This document shows positions 26,880 through 41,944 of a stretch of 64,000 nucleotides of DNA, piece by piece; within the stretch, counting starts at the first letter, position 1; every line of letters starts with the position of its first letter. Source of the DNA: Thermococcus celer Vu 13 = JCM 8558 (GTDB lineage Archaea > Methanobacteriota_B > Thermococci > Thermococcales > Thermococcaceae). The position numbers and the translations under genes are program-made. The notes under the pieces were generated by a model. The model was not told the DNA's origin. It did not search any database and saw only the letters and a program-made list of their open reading frames with translations. Where the stretch lies: the NCBI RefSeq assembly GCF_002214365.1, contig NZ_CP014854.1, positions 1,116,001 through 1,180,000 on the forward strand. The letters run 5' to 3'.

Positions 26880-26999
26880 ATACCACACTTCTACTCGTCC
26901 CTGTTGTCACCGGCGGAGGTCGGTGGTTTGGTCGCGATACAAGGCCGGACAATCCGAAAGGCCAATAAGGGCCGGGTGCGTAACACCCACGGTGATACG

Positions 27000-28457
27000 A
27001 TGCTCCTGAGGGACTACAGGTTTCCAGGCAGGTACGGACCCGAGTGGGGCAGCGGCGGGATATTCGGACTGCGCTACCACAGGGGGACGCTCTACTTCAC
27101 CCTCGCCTTCGAGGCCGAGGCTCACTTCGTGGACGTAAAAAGCGGTGAGGAAAAGGTCTACGATTTCACCCTCCTTGGGGACGCACCCACGAGCGGCGGG
27201 GACACCTACAACGCCGTCGAGACCGTTGACGAGTTCATCTACTTCGGCGGCTGGGTTCACGCGCCGGCCGTTTACCGGAAGGACAGACGGATACTCTTCA
27301 CCAACAAGTACTCCCACGTCCACGCCTACGACACGAAAGAGGGAACGGTTAAGCTCCTCTGGAAGGACTCCATCCACCACGAGACTGACTGGGCGGGGGA
27401 GGTCAGCGACATAATCTATGACCCATATAACGATAGACTTCTCCTCGCGAGGGAGGACGGTCACGCCAACCTCGGCGTCTACTCCCTCGACAGAAAAACC
27501 GGAAAAGCCGAGGCCCTTCTCCGCGAGCCCTCGGCGAAGGGAACGGTGGTTCACGACAGCGCGTTCTTTGGGGTAGGGAACAACTTCACCGAGGGCCTCA
27601 GGGAGATAAGGGCCCTAGACCTGATAACCGGGAAGTGGGAAACGTTCAGGGCCGGAGAGAGCGTCGACGGGAGGCCGTACGTAAGGCCGGGGTACGGGCC
27701 GCTGGCGAGCGCCTACAACAGGGCCTTCGCCTTCGTCCGCGGTGGGATTATAGCGGGCAACCCATTGATGGGCGAGGACTTCAGGTTCTTCAGGCTCTTT
27801 GACTTCTACACCTTCTACGCCCCCTTCAGGGTGAACGCGATAAACACCGGAGGCGGGATCCTAATAGCATACAACGCCCACCACGACGCGGCTTACAGGC
27901 CCGACGACGGGTTCACCTGGGCCACCACCAACACTTTGGTCGGCCCGAGCGTTCTCCTCTACGTTGCCCCGCCGATGGTGAAGATAGTGGGAACCTTCGG
28001 GGCGAGGGTGACGAGCATCGAGAAGATGGACGGGAAGCTCCTCGTGGCGACCAACAGCGCCCCGAACACTGGTTCGACGGAGGCGACACCCTTCGATACA
28101 GGTAACCGGGACATCACGGTCCTCGACGAGAAGATACTCCAGCAGAGGCCTCCGACCGTGAGCTTTTCCCTGCCCCTCGCGCTCCCAAGCATGGCGAAGG
28201 AGATGGGGGCCGGAACCTTCGGGGGAATCCCGCTGGATGGCTACCGCGAGCCGAGGATGATCCTCCACCTGAGCAGGGACAACCGCATTAGGGTTTACGA
28301 GTACGACCTCTCGCTTCCGGCCGGAGAAGCAACCGAGGAGACCTTCGACGTCAAAGCGGGTAAGAACGTCCTCGAGCTCGACTCCTTCGGCGGCATCCTG
28401 AGCTTCGAGCTGGAGAAAGGGGATACGAAAGGAAAGGTGAGAATAGAGCTCCGTTAG
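27000..28457 (+). CDS. DUF2139 family protein, probable beta-propeller
   Basis: 485 residues from the ATG at 27000 with GGTGATACG immediately before it; a frame extension to 26904 lacks a ribosome site. The sequence is rich in short beta strands with repeated aromatic/Gly/Asp turns, as in KMDGKLLVATN, VFHV- and HAYDTKEGTVKLLW-type blades, which suits a propeller. It matches what I know of DUF2139, an archaeal family without assigned function. No signal peptide is visible, so it is probably cytoplasmic. Neighbours are Tfx upstream and a convergent small gene downstream. Confidence 0.8.
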   Translation: MLLRDYRFPGRYGPEWGSGGIFGLRYHRGTLYFTLAFEAEAHFVDVKSGEEKVYDFTLLGDAPTSGGDTYNAVETVDEFIYFGGWVHAPAVYRKDRRILFTNKYSHVHAYDTKEGTVKLLWKDSIHHETDWAGEVSDIIYDPYNDRLLLAREDGHANLGVYSLDRKTGKAEALLREPSAKGTVVHDSAFFGVGNNFTEGLREIRALDLITGKWETFRAGESVDGRPYVRPGYGPLASAYNRAFAFVRGGIIAGNPLMGEDFRFFRLFDFYTFYAPFRVNAINTGGGILIAYNAHHDAAYRPDDGFTWATTNTLVGPSVLLYVAPPMVKIVGTFGARVTSIEKMDGKLLVATNSAPNTGSTEATPFDTGNRDITVLDEKILQQRPPTVSFSLPLALPSMAKEMGAGTFGGIPLDGYREPRMILHLSRDNRIRVYEYDLSLPAGEATEETFDVKAGKNVLELDSFGGILSFELEKGDTKGKVRIELR

Positions 28458-28810: not shown

Positions 28811-31800
28811 TCAGTGCTTCTCCATGACCCCGAGGTAGTCCTCGATGTCGATGTAGGTCTTCCTGTAGAGCTCGCTCTTCTTCATCTTCTCCACGAACTC
28901 CTTCGTCCTGATGTACTTGTCCTTCCTGTAGTCCCAGTCGGGGTGGAGCGCCTTCCACTCCTCCCAGCTGTAGCTGAACTGGGCCTGCACCTTATCCCTG
29001 TAGAGCTCGGGAATCACGTTGAACGTACAGAAGGGCACTATCCTGCCATCGGGCATCGCGTAGTGGATGACGCAGCGCTCGACCCTCTCGACGTCGTAGT
29101 TGTACTCGTCCATGAAGTGCATCATTCCCAGGAAGAGCGCATTGGTGTGGAACTTTCCGAGGGCGTCGTAGTTGCCGTGGACGAAGGCGTTCTTTATGAG
29201 CTCGAGGACGCTGAGGCCCTTGGGGGCGTACTTATCGTCGTAGAAGCTCTTGAACTTCATGAATATCTCGGCGCCGAGCTTGAGCCTGCGGAGCTTGCCC
29301 ATCTTCTTCCACTGCTCTATCTCCTCAGCCTTGCTCTCCAGGAACTCAACGAAGCCCTCAACGTCGAGGAACCTGCTTATCGGCACCACCCGCTTGTTCT
29401 CCCTGTCGAGGAAGGCGTAGGTTGCCGCGCCGCAGGCGTAGTGGCTGGTCATGTAGTACTTGCTCCCGGCGAAGACCTCGAAGAACCTCGCTATGTGACC
29501 CGCTATCGGTATGGGATACCAGTCGTCCTGGGCTATGGCCCCGTGGGTCTGCTCCTCTATCCGCTCTATGGCTCCGGGTATCGTTATCCTGAAGCGCTGG
29601 CGCTCCCTCTTCGGAACCCTCCCGACGAGGGAAATCGGCTGGAAGTTCACGCCCCTCACTATGTCGAGGTGGTTGAGGGCGAAGTTTATCATCGCCCCGA
29701 GCTCGTGGTCGTTGACGTTCCTTATGGTGGTCGGCACGAGGACTATGCCCGGCCCGCCGGCCTTCCTGACGTTATCGAAGATGAGCGGGACCTCCCAGTG
29801 GTTCTTCCAGTTGGTCTGGGGCGTCATGCCGTCGTAGCTCATGTAGAGGGTGTTAACGCCAGCCTCCCTGATTTTCTTAACGAGCTCCGGTTCAAATGCG
29901 AGCTTTATTCCGTCCGTGTTGAGCTGGACGTGGTCGTAACCTTCTTCCCTTGCGATCCTGATTATCTCGATGAGGTCATCCCTCAATGTGGGCTCTCCAC
30001 CGGTGAGCTGAACCGCGTTCGCTCCGATGGGCTGCTCCTTCTTCGCGTTGCGGAGCATCATCCGTATCTGCTCGAGCGTGGGCTCGTATATCGGCTGGCC
30101 CTCTTTGGCGTAGAAGAAGCAGTTGCTCACGAGTAGACCGTCGGAGGCAACGAACGAGTGTCCGGGGCTCTCGACTTCAATGTCGTAGACGTATCCCGAG
30201 TAATCCTCCTCTTCGATGCTCTTCACCGGATCGAGGTAGAAGTCGCTGACCTTCGTTATTCTTGCGGGCTTCCTCGCCCCAACCTCACCCAGTCTCTCCC
30301 TGTGGCCCTCCCCGAGTTCGACTACCTCAATGAGCCTCTCGAGGTCCTTTCCGGCCACGTATACCTTGTAGAGGTCGTGGTTCGCCCCCGCAACCTTCTC
30401 CTTTTTGACCTCGTAGACCCTCGCAAAGATCCCGAAGGATGCGAGTAGATAGAGAACGTCCCTTATCAGGCCGCGGGAGACGCTGGCGTAGCCGATGTTC
30501 AGGTGTCTCTCGCCCCTCACAACGTAGCCATCGCCGTTGAGTAAGCCTGAGAGGAGTGCCGCCCTGACCTCGTAGGGGTAGTTGAGGAAGTCCCTCGGGA
30601 GCCTCTTGTTCTCTGCCTTTTCAGGGATTCCGAGGGCGTACTTGAAGACGAGGCGGACCAGTCTGCTCCCGATCACTATCTGCTTCGCCTTCCCTTCGGC
30701 CTCAAGGATGCTGTGGGGAAGCTTGAGCTCCTTGAGGATAGATAGTATCTCCTCTTCAACGTCCTTATGGCCAACCGTTATGCGGACATCTTTGTCTGTG
30801 TAGTGCCCGTCCGACACGAAGTAGCCTATGAGCCTTGCGAGGGGGGGAGTGACCTCAAGTTTCGAGGGCAGTTCATAATCGGTCGCGTCCCTCCCGAGCC
30901 TGAACTCGCCCGGGACGTTTAGCTTGTAGAAGGCGCTTAAAGGCATTGAGTCCTGGCTCTTCCAGGAGTAAATCCTGTCCCCGTATTCCTCCTTCAACGG
31001 GGAAAGGTCGATTCCCCCTATGCCCCTGACGTAGGTCTTCTCCTTCTCCTCCTCGGGCAGGGATTTAAACGCCTCAATCAGGTCTATGGTGTAGGGTGCA
31101 CCGCTCTCCGGGATCCTCCACGTTGAGAGAAGCTCGTCGCCCGGTTTGAGCTCGTCGGCCCTCTTCTTCACGAGCTTTCCGTCCACGTGGACGAACACCT
31201 TGTGCTCCGGGGTGACCCTCAGCGTCCTCCCCGTTCCCGTTCTTATCCTGAGGATCTTGCCCTCGTGTCTCCTCCTGAGGAATTTGGTTACCTTCGTCCA
31301 CCTGGCCTCCCCGTCCTCGAAGGTCAGGACGTGGATATCATCGGGCGTTGAGTACTCTCCCTTGAACCCGTCGATCTCAACTTTGTTCTCGAAGGAGAAC
31401 CTCTTGGCAAGGTCCCCGAACTTCAGGAGACTCACCTCGTTTCCGACCTTGAAAACCGCCTCCTCGTCCGGGGGGAAGCAATACCAGCAGCTCAAATTGC
31501 ACCTGTTCGTCAAAACGATGTTTATCAGGCTCGTGTGGGAGCGGTGCCTTGAGCAGAGACCGCAGTCGAGAGGACAGTTGGCGCCTGTGTTCTCGACGTT
31601 GGAACTCGTGATCTTGAAGTCGTACCTCCACTTCTGGAACCTGTAGTACTGCTCAACGCTCTCGTAGTAAAGACCGGTTATCATACCCTCGGGGCAGCGC
31701 TTGGTTATCCACACCCTGCCGTCCTTCTCCCACACGAGGGCGGGAACGACCCTCCTCGTCTCGGGACAGAGAGAGTAGGTCCTGTGGGGCAGGGGGCCGC

Positions 31801-31942
31801 CGTAGGCCCTGCTGGCCCTTCTCATCATTTTCTCGAACTCATCCTCACCTATCTCGGGGAACTCGATTACGTCCCTGATCCTCCTCGTTAATTGCTCGAA
31901 CTCCTTCTCGCCACTCGGCACCTCACCAACGTTTTCTGCCAT
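28811..31942 (-). CDS. Radical SAM protein of the Tes (tetraether lipid synthase)/MJ0619 type, containing an intein
   Basis: 1043 residues from the ATG at 31942 (GGTGAATGGGT upstream); about 590 residues remain after removing the 453-residue intein. Extein features: C59 and C83 (SLCPETRR, KRCPEG) as for a rubredoxin-like iron site; C123-x3-C127-x2-C130 (CPLDCGLC); HTSLINIVLTNRC leading into the radical SAM motif C148-x3-C152-x2-C; GGEPTLRDD; and a C-terminal CVIHYAMPDGRIVPFC. This cysteine layout fits the MJ0619/Tes class, which joins two archaeol lipids by C-C bonds into GDGT tetraethers. The Tes role is inferred from memory of the family. Spliced protein is required: the intein splits the cluster motif. 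Confidence 0.75.
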   Translation of the reverse strand: MAENVGEVPSGEKEFEQLTRRIRDVIEFPEIGEDEFEKMMRRASRAYGGPLPHRTYSLCPETRRVVPALVWEKDGRVWITKRCPEGMITGLYYESVEQYYRFQKWRYDFKITSSNVENTGANCPLDCGLCSRHRSHTSLINIVLTNRCNLSCWYCFPPDEEAVFKVGNEVSLLKFGDLAKRFSFENKVEIDGFKGEYSTPDDIHVLTFEDGEARWTKVTKFLRRRHEGKILRIRTGTGRTLRVTPEHKVFVHVDGKLVKKRADELKPGDELLSTWRIPESGAPYTIDLIEAFKSLPEEEKEKTYVRGIGGIDLSPLKEEYGDRIYSWKSQDSMPLSAFYKLNVPGEFRLGRDATDYELPSKLEVTPPLARLIGYFVSDGHYTDKDVRITVGHKDVEEEILSILKELKLPHSILEAEGKAKQIVIGSRLVRLVFKYALGIPEKAENKRLPRDFLNYPYEVRAALLSGLLNGDGYVVRGERHLNIGYASVSRGLIRDVLYLLASFGIFARVYEVKKEKVAGANHDLYKVYVAGKDLERLIEVVELGEGHRERLGEVGARKPARITKVSDFYLDPVKSIEEEDYSGYVYDIEVESPGHSFVASDGLLVSNCFFYAKEGQPIYEPTLEQIRMMLRNAKKEQPIGANAVQLTGGEPTLRDDLIEIIRIAREEGYDHVQLNTDGIKLAFEPELVKKIREAGVNTLYMSYDGMTPQTNWKNHWEVPLIFDNVRKAGGPGIVLVPTTIRNVNDHELGAMINFALNHLDIVRGVNFQPISLVGRVPKRERQRFRITIPGAIERIEEQTHGAIAQDDWYPIPIAGHIARFFEVFAGSKYYMTSHYACGAATYAFLDRENKRVVPISRFLDVEGFVEFLESKAEEIEQWKKMGKLRRLKLGAEIFMKFKSFYDDKYAPKGLSVLELIKNAFVHGNYDALGKFHTNALFLGMMHFMDEYNYDVERVERCVIHYAMPDGRIVPFCTFNVIPELYRDKVQAQFSYSWEEWKALHPDWDYRKDKYIRTKEFVEKMKKSELYRKTYIDIEDYLGVMEKH
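30122..31480 (-). other. Intein with LAGLIDADG homing endonuclease, inserted in the [4Fe-4S] motif
   Basis: 453 residues from Cys155 to Asn607 of the precursor. Block A starts CFPPDEEAVF; block B holds the TxxH motif (RVTPEHK); two LAGLIDADG-type motifs are RLIGYFVSDG and LLSGLLNGDG, about 90 residues apart; the C-terminal block is YDIEVESPGHSF...LLVSN followed by Cys608 as +1 nucleophile. That Cys608 is the third cysteine of the CX3CX2C cluster motif, so unspliced enzyme cannot bind the cluster. The penultimate intein residue is Ser rather than the usual His. The endonuclease motifs look intact, so homing may still be active. Confidence 0.95.
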
Positions 31943-31995
31943 ACCCATTCACCCCTTTTTCCACTCCCTTTGCTGGCCTCTGTTTCGCTTCAGGA

Positions 31996-34984: not shown

Positions 34985-34985
34985 G

Positions 34986-35164
34986 TCCAGGTTTTTACAT
35001 TTTTTATTAAATCCGATTTTTATTTTTCTTATGTTGTGTTAATGGATATTCTTGTTTTTTATACTGACGATACCAATGTTGTTAGGGTTATCAACCAAAG
35101 GTTAACAAAAAACTTAAATACTCCTGTTAAGCTTAATAGACGAAAATCTACAGGAGGTGATAAT
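34986..35164 (+). promoter_or_regulatory. T-rich terminator of nhaC and promoter of the RiPP precursor
   Basis: Several T runs at 34992-35028 probably end the nhaC transcript. The likely promoter of the precursor is AAAAAACTTAAATACT (35106-35121), about 45-60 nt before the ATG at 35165. The leader ends with AGGAGGTGATAAT, a near-perfect Shine-Dalgarno element. The whole spacer is A/T-rich. Confidence 0.55.
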
Positions 35165-35302
35165 ATGGACCCCCACTATGTGGTGCAGGCTCCTAATGGC
35201 AAGGGTTGTGCGGCCTGTTCCATCTGCGCCATCTGCCTTGCGGATGGTCCCGTCCCCGATTTTGAGGGCGCCGGGATATACGGTCTCTTCGGTCTCTTTT
35301 GA
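35165..35302 (+). CDS. Putative sactipeptide-type RiPP precursor peptide
   Basis: 45 residues. Residues 1-14 (MDPHYVVQAPNGKG) look like a short leader and residues 15-45 like the core, with cysteines C15, C18, C21 and C24 (C-x2-C-x2-C-x2-C, small residues between), then an acidic/Pro turn and a Gly/aromatic tail (GAGIYGLFGLF). The cysteine spacing equals that of thurincin H-type sactipeptides, where each Cys sulfur is joined to the alpha-carbon of a residue in the C-terminal half. The frame is open back to a GTG at 35036, but AGGAGGTGAT and the TATA box favour the short start. Next gene is a radical SAM/SPASM maturase 98 nt downstream. Confidence 0.8.
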   Translation: MDPHYVVQAPNGKGCAACSICAICLADGPVPDFEGAGIYGLFGLF

Positions 35303-35400
35303 AGGCTTTTAATTTTCCATTATTTGCCTCCATAAATTAGCATGGTATAGAATGATTCGTTGCAGAGGTACTTGGTTAGGTGCGTTCGGAGGGAGATCTC

Positions 35401-36729
35401 ATGAATATTGGAATATCCAAAAAATACGTTTCCCTTTCAGATAATACCCGGCTCCTAATCTATACCCATCAGGCCGTGCTAATAAAAAATGGCAACGTGA
35501 GGGTCGTTAATGATGACGCCACGAAGGTACTGAGGAAGTGTGATGGTACTCTAACGGTTGAGGACCTTTTGGAATCCATCTCTTCGGATCCGGGGGTACA
35601 GGAGAAGATACTGCAATTTCTAATAACTGCGGAGAAGTTCGGTGATGTGATCTTCTCCGATAGCCCCGTAAGTTCATCCGCCAGTATTGAAGAATATGAA
35701 TATCTAACTCCTGTTCACGTGGTGTTTGAACTCACGGAAAACTGCAATCTCAACTGCGCCCATTGTTACAGGATATTGGATAAAAAGCCGGTTTACATCG
35801 AATTTGAAGCCTTCAAAAAGACCATAGATTTTTTAGTCTCCAGAGGGCTGGTGGGTATTGAAATAACGGGGGGAGAACCAACCCTTCATCCAGACTTCTT
35901 AGATATTGTGGAATACGCCGCTAAGAGGGTCTCCATGGTGGGTATCCTCACAAACGGTGTTTATCTCCCGCCGGGAACCATCGAACGCCTTAGCAAATAC
36001 CGGGAAAAACTGTTCTTCAGTATCAGTTTGGATAGCCACGATCCAGAGTATCACGATAGGTTTAGGGGGATTCCAGGAGCGTGGAAAAAGACAGTTTCCA
36101 ATATTAAACAATTAACATCCGCAGGATACAAAGTTAGGGTTGCTATGACCGTCACTCCCGATAACATAGACCACCTTGAAAGGACTGCAGAACTCGCCGT
36201 CAAACTTGGAGTCAAAGTATTCTCTTACAACCCGATACTGCCTTTCGGAAAAGCAGGGGATGTCGTATGGTCTCCAGAGGATCTATGGAAGCTCAGCGCC
36301 GCAGATAAGAGGGTCAGGAAGAAGTTTAAGTCAATTATTCCAGTAATCCAACTGGAGGAATTCGATAGTGAGGGCTCCACGAAGAACTGTGGTGCCGGAT
36401 GGAGAAGTTGCACTATCGGACCCGATTTAGGAATCAGAATGTGCGTTATAAGCGATTCAAAACGGGATGCTTTTGGGAGGATAGATCCCAGTGATGTTGA
36501 GTCAACGTTCAAAGAGGTCTCTGACAATATGATGTTCTTCTATAACGCATCATCCCCCGGGCCAAACGTGTGCGGGGATTGTAGGTTCTTGAATTTCTGC
36601 TCTCCCTGTATGCTGAGGGCGAGATACGTCCTTGAGAACGGTATGATCCACCCATCGGAATGTAAATGGGCCCAAGAGGTTGGGGTGGAGAACCTGAAAA
36701 GATACCTAGGGGTGAACCTCGATGGATAA
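35401..36729 (+). CDS. Radical SAM/SPASM RiPP maturase with PqqD-like N-terminus
   Basis: 442 residues; ATG at 35401 preceded by GGAGGGAGATCTC. Residues about 1-90 resemble a PqqD/RRE recognition domain (VRVVNDDATKVLRKCDGTL, VEDLLESI). The radical SAM motif is C115-x3-C119-x2-C122 (CNLNCAHC), with GGEPT at 157-161. The SPASM region has C330, C337, C348, C391, C394, C400, C403 and C421, enough for two auxiliary clusters. Such enzymes (AlbA, SkfB, ThnB class) form Cys thioether bonds in a precursor peptide. The gene is visibly more A/T-rich than its downstream partners. Its stop overlaps the next start by 8 nt. Confidence 0.9.
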   Translation: MNIGISKKYVSLSDNTRLLIYTHQAVLIKNGNVRVVNDDATKVLRKCDGTLTVEDLLESISSDPGVQEKILQFLITAEKFGDVIFSDSPVSSSASIEEYEYLTPVHVVFELTENCNLNCAHCYRILDKKPVYIEFEAFKKTIDFLVSRGLVGIEITGGEPTLHPDFLDIVEYAAKRVSMVGILTNGVYLPPGTIERLSKYREKLFFSISLDSHDPEYHDRFRGIPGAWKKTVSNIKQLTSAGYKVRVAMTVTPDNIDHLERTAELAVKLGVKVFSYNPILPFGKAGDVVWSPEDLWKLSAADKRVRKKFKSIIPVIQLEEFDSEGSTKNCGAGWRSCTIGPDLGIRMCVISDSKRDAFGRIDPSDVESTFKEVSDNMMFFYNASSPGPNVCGDCRFLNFCSPCMLRARYVLENGMIHPSECKWAQEVGVENLKRYLGVNLDG

Positions 36730-37153
36730 CGTCTACTTCTTTGCCTTTTTGCTGGGGTTGTACGGGTACATCGAGTTTGTGCTACTCCTGATAACCGCGA
36801 AGAGGAGTTTCCTCGGGGGAACCGACTTCTTCTGGCCCCGGATTCGGCGATACGTGGACGCTCCCGTTGGTGCGCTCTCTCTGCTCCTCTCATTGAGGAC
36901 AGGTGGTGGGTTTAAGCTTATCCTCGCCCTGTACGGTGTTTCCCTCCTGCTGGTGTCCGCCAGGGATGTCCTGAGGTTATCGAACCGACCCGTGACGGTT
37001 AGAAAGGCCTTTAACTACGTGGCGAACTCTTACATAGTGCTGGCGATCTTCCTGATGGGGCCCTGGTTGGGGAGTGTCCTCCCCGTGGAGCCCACCATCG
37101 TACTCGTGATCGCCTATTTCATTACCTACCGCCTTATATGGAGGGTACCCTGA
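36722..37153 (+). CDS. Four-helix membrane protein of the RiPP cluster, possible immunity protein
   Basis: 143 residues with hydrophobic segments at about 4-24, 48-62, 66-80 and 100-140 (two helices), separated by basic loops (TAKRSF, WPRIRRY, RLSNRPVTVRK). No recognised domain. It overlaps the maturase by 8 nt and the ABC ATPase start by 1 nt (TGATG), so it is part of the same operon. Small membrane proteins at this position in bacteriocin clusters often give self-immunity or assist export; that role is inferred from position. Confidence 0.7.
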   Translation: MDNVYFFAFLLGLYGYIEFVLLLITAKRSFLGGTDFFWPRIRRYVDAPVGALSLLLSLRTGGGFKLILALYGVSLLLVSARDVLRLSNRPVTVRKAFNYVANSYIVLAIFLMGPWLGSVLPVEPTIVLVIAYFITYRLIWRVP

Positions 37154-37845
37154 TGAACGTGATAGAGGTAAAGGACCTGAGGAAGAGACTGGGGGGAAGG
37201 GAGATCCTGAGGGGAGTCTCATTCAACGTGGGGCGAGAGGAGATTTACGGCTTCCTCGGTCCCAACGGAGCCGGAAAGACCACCACCATAAGGACCACCC
37301 TTGGGCTCCTCAGGAAAGACGGGGGTAGCGTTAGGATATTCGGAGAGGAACCCGGGAGGGGTATTTTCAAACGCCTCGGGGTCGTGTTCGAGTACGAGGT
37401 CCTGAACCCCGACTGGACGGTTTTGGAGAACCTCAGGTTCGTGGCTTACGTCAGGGATAGAGATATGGACGAAGTGGAGGCCGCACTTGACACGGTTGAG
37501 TTTTCAAAGGAACACTGGGGCAAGAGGTTCAAGGAGCTCTCGAAGGGCATGAAGAGGAAGGTTTCCCTTGCGTCTGCCATTCTCCACGATCCAGAGCTTT
37601 TAATACTCGATGAGCCGATGAGCGGGCTTGACCCCACGGCTCAGGTCGAGGTGAGAAGACTTCTCCTGAAATTGAGGGACGAGGGTAAGACGATATTCTT
37701 CTCTTCCCACAACCTGCCAGAAGTTCAAAAAATAGCCGACAGGGCGGCGATCATTGTGAACGGTACAACCAGGGCCCAGTTCTCACTTGAGGATGTGGAA
37801 GACCTCGAAAAAACGTACCTAACGATGGTGGGTGGTTCTCCATGA
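37153..37845 (+). CDS. ABC transporter ATPase of the RiPP cluster
   Basis: 230 residues. Walker A GPNGAGKT at 36-43, signature LSKGM at 129-133, Walker B ELLILDEP around 148-155, H-loop His186 (SSHN). The Q-loop Gln position is Glu80 in VVFEYE, as in several archaeal ABC-2 ATPases. It pairs with the permease that overlaps by 4 nt (ATGA). No peptidase (C39) domain is fused, so the leader peptide must be cut by another enzyme. Likely exports the modified peptide or protects the producer. Confidence 0.92.
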   Translation: MNVIEVKDLRKRLGGREILRGVSFNVGREEIYGFLGPNGAGKTTTIRTTLGLLRKDGGSVRIFGEEPGRGIFKRLGVVFEYEVLNPDWTVLENLRFVAYVRDRDMDEVEAALDTVEFSKEHWGKRFKELSKGMKRKVSLASAILHDPELLILDEPMSGLDPTAQVEVRRLLLKLRDEGKTIFFSSHNLPEVQKIADRAAIIVNGTTRAQFSLEDVEDLEKTYLTMVGGSP

Positions 37846-38519
37846 GAACGAGAAAGTTACTGCTACTCCACTTCACCACCACCCTCCGTGAGTCGGTCAT
37901 CGTTTTTGCTCTGCTGGGTTTCTTAGTGTTCTATGGGGCGTTCTCCAGCGGTGGGGACGTGCTAACCCGCCTCGACTCCAAGGGGCTGTTCCAGGTTTAT
38001 TTCCTCCTCCTCATGATGCTGGTGGGGTACACGGTAACGTTCTCCCTGTACTTTGCCCCGTTTTTGAAGAAGAAAACCTCCGGGTTCTACCACCTCTACC
38101 TCATCCTGCCCGAGGATCCCTCCAAGCTTCTGATGGTCGAGATACTGCCGACCCTGCTGATCTCGCTCCTCCTCACGTGGGGGATCGGGCTGGTGTTTTA
38201 CATTAAAGCCCCCATATCCCACGCATCCTGGCTCGTCCTGCCCATGATCGGCGGCGGACTGTTTACGCTGGGATTCGGGGTTCTATCGCTGGCCCTCATG
38301 CTTCAGATATCCAACGTGCGGACCCTCAGCGTGGTGCTCTTCCTGCTGATCTTCGTGCTCGTGCGGGTACCGCAGTACATGGTTAAGGGCATGGTCAGGG
38401 GAAACTTCTCTCCGGACCTCGCGACGGCGCTCCTTACCGGGATCTCGGCCCTCTTTGCGTTGGCGGGTTTTCTGGCCATCAGACGGATCAGCCCGGAGAG
38501 GGTCATACTGTCCTCGTAA
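37842..38519 (+). CDS. ABC-2-type permease of the RiPP cluster
   Basis: 225 residues with six predicted TM helices (about 18-33, 52-74, 98-118, 128-155, 160-178, 195-213). A cytosolic loop KKKTSGFYHLYLILPEDPSKL matches the coupling region of ABC-2 permeases. It overlaps the ATPase stop by 4 nt and is followed by T6 at 38521-38526, so it ends the operon. Partner of the preceding ATPase. Confidence 0.85.
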   Translation: MRTRKLLLLHFTTTLRESVIVFALLGFLVFYGAFSSGGDVLTRLDSKGLFQVYFLLLMMLVGYTVTFSLYFAPFLKKKTSGFYHLYLILPEDPSKLLMVEILPTLLISLLLTWGIGLVFYIKAPISHASWLVLPMIGGGLFTLGFGVLSLALMLQISNVRTLSVVLFLLIFVLVRVPQYMVKGMVRGNFSPDLATALLTGISALFALAGFLAIRRISPERVILSS

Positions 38520-38550
38520 GTTTTTTAGGTCCTTTCCCCACCATTTTTTA
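38520..38550 (+). terminator. Oligo-T terminator of the RiPP operon
   Basis: T6 at 38521-38526 directly after the permease stop and a second T6 near 38544-38549, just before the ribosome site of the pantoate kinase gene. The second run may also act as part of that gene's promoter region. Confidence 0.4.
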
Positions 38551-38559
38551 GGTGGTACA

Positions 38560-41197: not shown

Positions 41198-41944
41198 TCA
41201 ATTCCCGTCCTTCGTGGAGGGAGCGTCAAGCCTCCCCTGGATTTCTTCAATATCTTCCGGCTCGTCGTGCCCTCCACTTCCCCAGGGGACCTGCCCGACC
41301 AGCCCGGCGGCCTTCTTTGCCACGGGCGGGGCGACCAGCAGGAAAACCCCTGAAAGGCCCACCAGAACCGCCACGACCGTTCCGGAATAACCATCGACCA
41401 TCGCCAGCGGTGGGAGGTCGTAGAGGGCGTGGGCGGTCATCGAGAATAGAACCCCTGCGAAACGCCCCCTTCCGGTCCCGCCGAGCAGGAAACCCGCGCT
41501 TACGGAGGCCCAAACCGTGTGCAATCCCACGAGGATCAACCTCACGGCGACGAGGTAGAGTGGCTGGTCGAGGGCGAAGATTCCGGCGGTGTAGAGGAAC
41601 CCCTCGGCAACCCCCAGGAAGGCCCCGGCCCCAACCGCGAGCTTCCACCTCTCCCATTCCGGTGAGCGTCTAAAGAACCTCAGGGGCAGGAGCTTTACTG
41701 ATTCCTCGATTACACCCGCGGCGAAAGCTAACGCCACCCATCCCCCAAGGTAGAGGAAGGGAGCCTCGAGGAGAGACGCCACGAGGAGTCCGAGTAGGCC
41801 GAGGCCAAAAGAGCTGGCCTTCCAGGGACTTTCCGGAAGGGAGCGCCACCGCTGAAGGGTGTACTTAAGGCCAAGGAGGACGGAGAGGCCCCCGAGGAGG
41901 ATCAATATTCCGAAGTAGTACCCGATAACTTTCTCGGGTGTCAT
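41198..41944 (-). CDS. PrsW-family intramembrane protease-like protein
   Basis: 248 residues with about seven TM helices. The motifs of PrsW-type glutamic intramembrane proteases are in order: the E-E-x2-K pair (GVIEESVKLLP, about 80-90), GAFLGVAEGFLY (about 110-121), a His in VGLHTVWAS (about 140-148) and MTAHALYD (about 167-174). PrsW cleaves anti-sigma factors in Bacillus; archaea lack that system, so the substrate is unknown. Leaderless: TATA-like GTTTAATAAG lies about 25 nt before the ATG. The polar C-terminal 30 residues end in acidic and basic charges. Confidence 0.78.
   Translation of the reverse strand: MTPEKVIGYYFGILILLGGLSVLLGLKYTLQRWRSLPESPWKASSFGLGLLGLLVASLLEAPFLYLGGWVALAFAAGVIEESVKLLPLRFFRRSPEWERWKLAVGAGAFLGVAEGFLYTAGIFALDQPLYLVAVRLILVGLHTVWASVSAGFLLGGTGRGRFAGVLFSMTAHALYDLPPLAMVDGYSGTVVAVLVGLSGVFLLVAPPVAKKAAGLVGQVPWGSGGHDEPEDIEEIQGRLDAPSTKDGN

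Follow-up and report, generated by a model that had tools for sequence, protein, structure and literature searches.

Which kind of cross-linked peptide does a 45-residue open reading frame of Thermococcus celer encode, and between which residues would its cross-links run? The frame lies in the window analyzed here, a stretch of 64,000 nucleotides from a 1.87-Mb, single-contig genome, and its product, MDPHYVVQAPNGKGCAACSICAICLADGPVPDFEGAGIYGLFGLF, ends at a TGA stop codon and carries cysteines at residues 15, 18, 21, and 24. A sequence-only reading had pointed to the C-x2-C-x2-C-x2-C spacing of these cysteines, which the frame bears out, and had assigned the peptide to the thurincin H type, with a 14-residue leader. 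Our analysis points instead to a compact operon for a sactipeptide of the subtilosin type, with four rungs and most likely linear, a reading to which we assign a probability of about 70%. The features of the locus are:

34985–38559, no strand: segment that is extra relative to other genomes of the genus (comparison of loci)
35107–35122, plus strand: TATA-like A/T-rich stretch AAAAAACTTAAATACT, a putative promoter (read from the sequence)
35152–35159, plus strand: strong Shine-Dalgarno sequence AGGAGGTG of the precursor gene (read from the sequence)
35165–35302, plus strand: subtilosin A-family precursor with a fourth cysteine (PF11420, PDB 1pxq, homologues in two other genomes of the genus, G009 and G012)
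35401–36729, plus strand: AlbA-like radical SAM/SPASM peptide maturase (NF012164, PF04055, SkfB 6efn, alignment, structure model)
36722–37153, plus strand: 143-residue hydrophobic membrane protein in the place of AlbB (kept in both homologous operons, those of G009 and G012)
37138–37845, plus strand (start may be 37153): AlbC-like ABC transporter ATPase (PF00005; AlbC match, E = 2.7e-26)
37842–38519, plus strand: ABC-2 type permease, partner of the ATPase (gene order, hydrophobicity, weak ABC2_membrane_3 match)

Judged by its sequence, the precursor is related to subtilosin A, by far its closest relative, and does not belong with thurincin H. Matches to the Pfam Subtilosin_A family (PF11420; E = 3.6e-16, 59.5 bits against a curated cut-off of 25) and, in a sequence search of the PDB set, to subtilosin A itself (PDB 1pxq; E = 6.5e-12) place the resemblance far beyond chance, and identity to subtilosin A over the aligned core is 73%. 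In this alignment, where precursor residue n corresponds to subtilosin residue n − 11, C15, C18, C24, and F33 fall on subtilosin C4, C7, C13, and the acceptor F22, and the positions of subtilosin T28 and F31 hold Tyr and Phe. The subtilosin register would end the leader at about residue 11 (a length of 8–11 residues) and assign about residues 12–45 to the core; 14 residues do precede C15, as the sequence-only reading had counted, but the last of them would belong to the core. Kinship with thurincin H did not hold up. Its structure (2lbz) was in the searched PDB set and was not matched by the precursor, and a direct alignment, made as a single comparison, covered 6 residues (E = 0.012); the two peptides share the cysteine ladder and, by our prediction, four rungs, but no sequence kinship beyond those six residues. 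Shine-Dalgarno-like sequences, as well as an A-rich/TTTATGTA stretch, lie at the corresponding places upstream of the precursor genes of both G009 and G012.

Five consecutive genes are arranged in the order precursor, radical SAM maturase, 143-residue membrane protein, ABC ATPase, and permease. First, the best NCBIfam model for the maturase is AlbA (NF012164; E = 4.3e-55, 186.9 bits), with a score below the equivalog cut-off of 850 that sets it apart from the AlbA of the subtilosin A system, and a Pfam search found PF04055. Second, its closest solved structure by sequence is SkfB (PDB 6efn; E = 1.7e-23), and a Foldseek search with the predicted structure (mean pLDDT 77.8, poor in the C-terminal third) also placed SkfB first (E = 1.3e-21), followed by SuiB and CteB. 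Third, alignment with AlbA homologues places C115, C119, and C122 as the CxxxCxxC of the radical SAM core and C330, C348, C390/C394, C400, C403, and C421 as SPASM-type cysteines. The SkfB system differs in that SkfA holds one thioether (PMC5682303), whereas the archaeal enzyme keeps the AlbA-type cysteines of the SPASM region. The N-terminus of the maturase (residues 1 to about 85) is predicted from the modeled fold to be RRE-like, and its PqqD match in Pfam is weak (E = 0.14). With the RRE taken from that predicted fold, the locus has the sactipeptide arrangement, a cysteine-rich precursor adjoining an RRE-radical SAM-SPASM maturase gene. We regard it as extremely unlikely that the product is instead a cysteine-rich metal- or redox-binding peptide, or a ranthipeptide with links to beta or gamma carbons; CxxCxxCxxC does resemble iron-sulfur ligand motifs, and the products of some related SPASM maturases do carry beta/gamma links, but homology to subtilosin A runs through the whole core and an AlbA/SkfB-type maturase lies next to the precursor.

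The 143-residue membrane protein matched nothing in Pfam or NCBIfam and may be an immunity or transport partner. For the ABC ATPase, the best NCBIfam match is a lantibiotic protection ABC ATPase, below its cut-off, and a role in export and/or immunity is likely. At the place of the permease, the operons of G009 and G012 have a reading frame of permease-like size and kind. Like the subtilosin A system of the Bacillus subtilis group (sboA-albABCDEFG), the archaeal operon thus combines an AlbA-like maturase, a small membrane protein, and ABC genes, but it has no AlbE, AlbF, or AlbG and an archaeal host. The peptides share the core sequence, a short leader, three cysteines in register, and an invariant innermost Phe acceptor; the archaeal one differs in its fourth cysteine at position 10, Gly24, Tyr28, and the lack of residue 35.

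PF11420 occurs in three of 115 genomes of the phylum, those of T. celer, G009, and G012, and the latter two have the same operon at the same locus with a four-cysteine precursor. Between G009 and G012, both precursor and maturase are under purifying selection, with dN/dS of about 0.15 and 0.19, respectively (comparisons with the T. celer copy were saturated). We conclude that an archaeon, T. celer, has a genuine and conserved sactipeptide operon of the subtilosin type. When 84,980 species genomes, a set that may omit near relatives of the T. celer genome, were scanned for the pattern, 17 loci emerged, all bacterial, and four cysteines were present in three of them, from an Acidobacteria MAG (L078), a Bacillota MAG (L080), and Aneurinibacillus thermoaerophilus (L093). 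Weak PF11420 matches (L111–L120) were rejected, as none had the cysteine ladder and DGP-x-PDFE core. The plasmid and phage collections searched gave no match, and among the viral contigs searched only an enterococcal three-cysteine cluster matched, on a contig that IMG/VR lists as viral (L095). In another enterococcal subtilosin-like cluster of this three-cysteine kind, three nearly identical precursor genes stand in tandem (L091, 7802–8240).

The Acidobacteria cluster resembles that of T. celer in having a maturase, small membrane protein, ABC ATPase, and permease in order, where the precursor (on L078) and the maturase (on L123) lie on different contigs that we join by inference; its membrane protein, at the matching place, has 126 residues and a similarity too weak for a claim of homology. 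The Acidobacteria four-cysteine precursor (L078, 4688–4831) ends in GLFGLCAR, with a fifth cysteine, and lies behind an ATP synthase operon at the end of its contig, whereas L123 carries the maturase that probably goes with it. All three bacterial four-cysteine clusters are like that of T. celer in Cys10, Gly24, the lack of Gly/Ser35, and the lack of an M16 pair in the flanks examined. Those of Aneurinibacillus and the Bacillota MAG differ in having an additional MsbA-type ABC exporter.

How would the four cysteines be bonded? Subtilosin contains the bonds C4-F31, C7-T28, and C13-F22 plus an N1-G35 amide (PMC8183687), and the numbers of donor and acceptor have a constant sum (4 + 31, 7 + 28, and 13 + 22 all equal 35). 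Carried over to the precursor, this register predicts C24-F33, C18-Y39, and C15-F42. Because C21 occupies the position of subtilosin G10, its ladder partner should be A36 (10-25 in subtilosin numbering). Nested hairpin cross-links, which the sequence-only reading had considered, are likely from the homology to subtilosin, but the acceptors it had named (V30, F33, A36, and Y39) follow the register of thurincin H and lie one step of three too early. We consider bonds in that register (C24-V30, C21-F33, C18-A36, and C15-Y39) very unlikely. Cysteine spacing is identical in the two peptides, but the homology is to subtilosin, and the loop of thurincin H differs in length and therefore its acceptor register differs too. 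Residue 30 falls on subtilosin residue 19, which belongs to the DGP-x-PDF loop and is no acceptor in subtilosin, and in a column table of six four-cysteine and 13 three-cysteine cores this position is Ile, Val, Phe, or Leu. By contrast, F33 is invariant and falls on F22, the acceptor proven for the innermost cysteine. Of the other positions whose conservation the sequence-only reading had asked about, 36 is Ala or Phe, and 39, like 42, is variable across the family; in all three genomes of the genus, 39 and 42 are Tyr and Phe.

The same table bears on the fourth rung. Cys10 is accompanied by Gly24 in all six four-cysteine cores and in none of the 13 three-cysteine cores, every one of which combines Gly/Ala10 with Val/Ile24. 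Position 25 is Phe in four of the six four-cysteine cores and Ala in the other two, and Phe25 is absent from all 13 three-cysteine cores. In the T. celer precursor, the residue facing C21 is Ala. Replacement of an acceptor by Ala blocks AlbA on SboA, and Ala serves as an acceptor in thuricin CD beta (reviewed in PMC8172795). If Ala, which substitutes poorly for other acceptors when AlbA acts on its own substrate (PMC8172795), were not used here, the peptide would have just the three classical thioethers (C15-F42, C18-Y39, and C24-F33), with C21 free, in a disulfide dimer, or bound to metal. We think this unlikely, as all three genomes of the genus retain Cys10, as do three bacterial lineages, in the company of Gly24 and, in most cases, Phe25, and a conserved free thiol is improbable.

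In subtilosin, AlbE and AlbF are held to remove the leader and close the ring (PMC12731061, PMC12300986). There is no peptidase gene in the precursor operon, in agreement with the sequence-only reading, and the whole-genome peptidase search, which covered PF05193 (M16_C), found no match in the host genome, although a B. subtilis positive control did match. M16-type AlbE/AlbF genes are present in Bacillus, Bacillales, Anaerocolumna, and Eubacteriales clusters, and in Enterococcus by homology to those. Such pairs accompany most three-cysteine clusters, and none was found near the four-cysteine precursors in the flanks examined. A Corynebacterium three-cysteine cluster has no M16 pair nearby, and absence of the pair is thus not strictly tied to the fourth cysteine; Staphylococcus contigs end too early to judge. 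Gly/Ser35 ends 12 of the 13 three-cysteine cores and none of the six four-cysteine cores, and residue 35 is absent from the T. celer precursor. Because AlbE/AlbF and a C-terminal Gly/Ser are both lacking, the archaeal product is most likely linear rather than head-to-tail cyclic. A four-thioether peptide closed head to tail by an unknown archaeal protease-ligase would fit the 34-residue core, close to the 35 residues of subtilosin, and the fact that subtilosin itself is cyclic. We hold closure to be quite improbable in view of the missing M16_C, operon peptidase, and Gly/Ser35, and because the sole protease-like neighbor seen, a PrsW-like intramembrane protease (41198–41944, minus strand), falls just below the Pfam cut-off. 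In G009 and G012, a membrane protein similar in size to the PrsW-like one lies beyond DNA ligase.

Family, gene order, conservation, the maturase fold and cysteines, and the absence of M16_C come from computation; how the peptide works beyond its family assignment, from each individual bond and the linear form to export, immunity, and activity, we infer as follows. The precursor would be made with its short leader, which the AlbA-like enzyme would bind through its N-terminal RRE. The maturase, with its SPASM clusters, would then link the sulfurs of all four cysteines to alpha-carbons, giving a nested hairpin with C24-F33, C21-A36, C18-Y39, and C15-F42 (subtilosin 13-22, 10-25, 7-28, and 4-31). 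The ABC pair would export the peptide, with immunity probably provided by the membrane protein and/or the ABC pair, and a general housekeeping protease would remove the leader. The mature peptide may act on the membranes of competing microbes.

Comparison of loci bears on how the operon came to be where it is. Among 27 other loci of the genus, two of which could not be read, 25 have an NhaC antiporter gene that ends 58–169 bp before the GHMP kinase gene, with no operon between. GC content is 41–48% in the precursor and maturase genes versus about 60% in the flanks. These observations would fit gain by transfer, in either direction, followed by spread or loss. Between G009 and G012, dS is 0.42–0.96 for the operon genes compared and 0.27 for the neighboring GHMP kinase gene, which suggests that the operon alone has changed faster or been exchanged. 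Elsewhere in the window are an intein-carrying tetraether lipid synthase, Tes (28811–31948, minus strand; 2151 bits to the intein-containing Tes model), and a DUF2139 protein that is conserved in archaea (26904–28457, plus strand).

In a maturase tree rooted on other Thermococcales radical SAM proteins, with long branches that make the root uncertain, the three-cysteine enzymes form one clade (support 99/97) nested among four-cysteine enzymes, and the archaeal maturases pair with the Acidobacteria enzyme (90/88 with the outgroup and 100/99 without it). As the three-cysteine subtilosins form one clade, the four-cysteine form may be older. The tree needs one change between four and three cysteines, and hence the association of Cys10, Gly24, and Phe25 amounts to a single event and is weak evidence of covariation. 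It is possible, though we propose it tentatively, that the four-rung linear form is ancestral, that subtilosin A lost the 10-25 rung as it gained AlbE/AlbF and ring closure, and that the archaeal operon, which Acidobacteria share, preserves an older form and encodes the first archaeal subtilosin-type peptide. Were that so, G10 and A25 of subtilosin could be a vestige of the lost rung, a suggestion that is just as tentative and depends on the same history.

Archaeal sactipeptides receive no more than a general mention, in PMC12144867; the literature searched contained no paper on subtilosin together with Thermococcus, and no report of subtilosin from archaea was found in the papers searched. 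The extra rung of the Thermococcales version leads to an exact prediction of the bond that would close the gap in the subtilosin hairpin. Subtilosin A was the first sactipeptide discovered, and the archaeal version suggests that its macrocycle was a later addition. It would also supply a heat-stable AlbA-type enzyme with which alpha-thioether peptides could be made and studied, and it bears on the competition of archaea of hot habitats among themselves and with bacteria.
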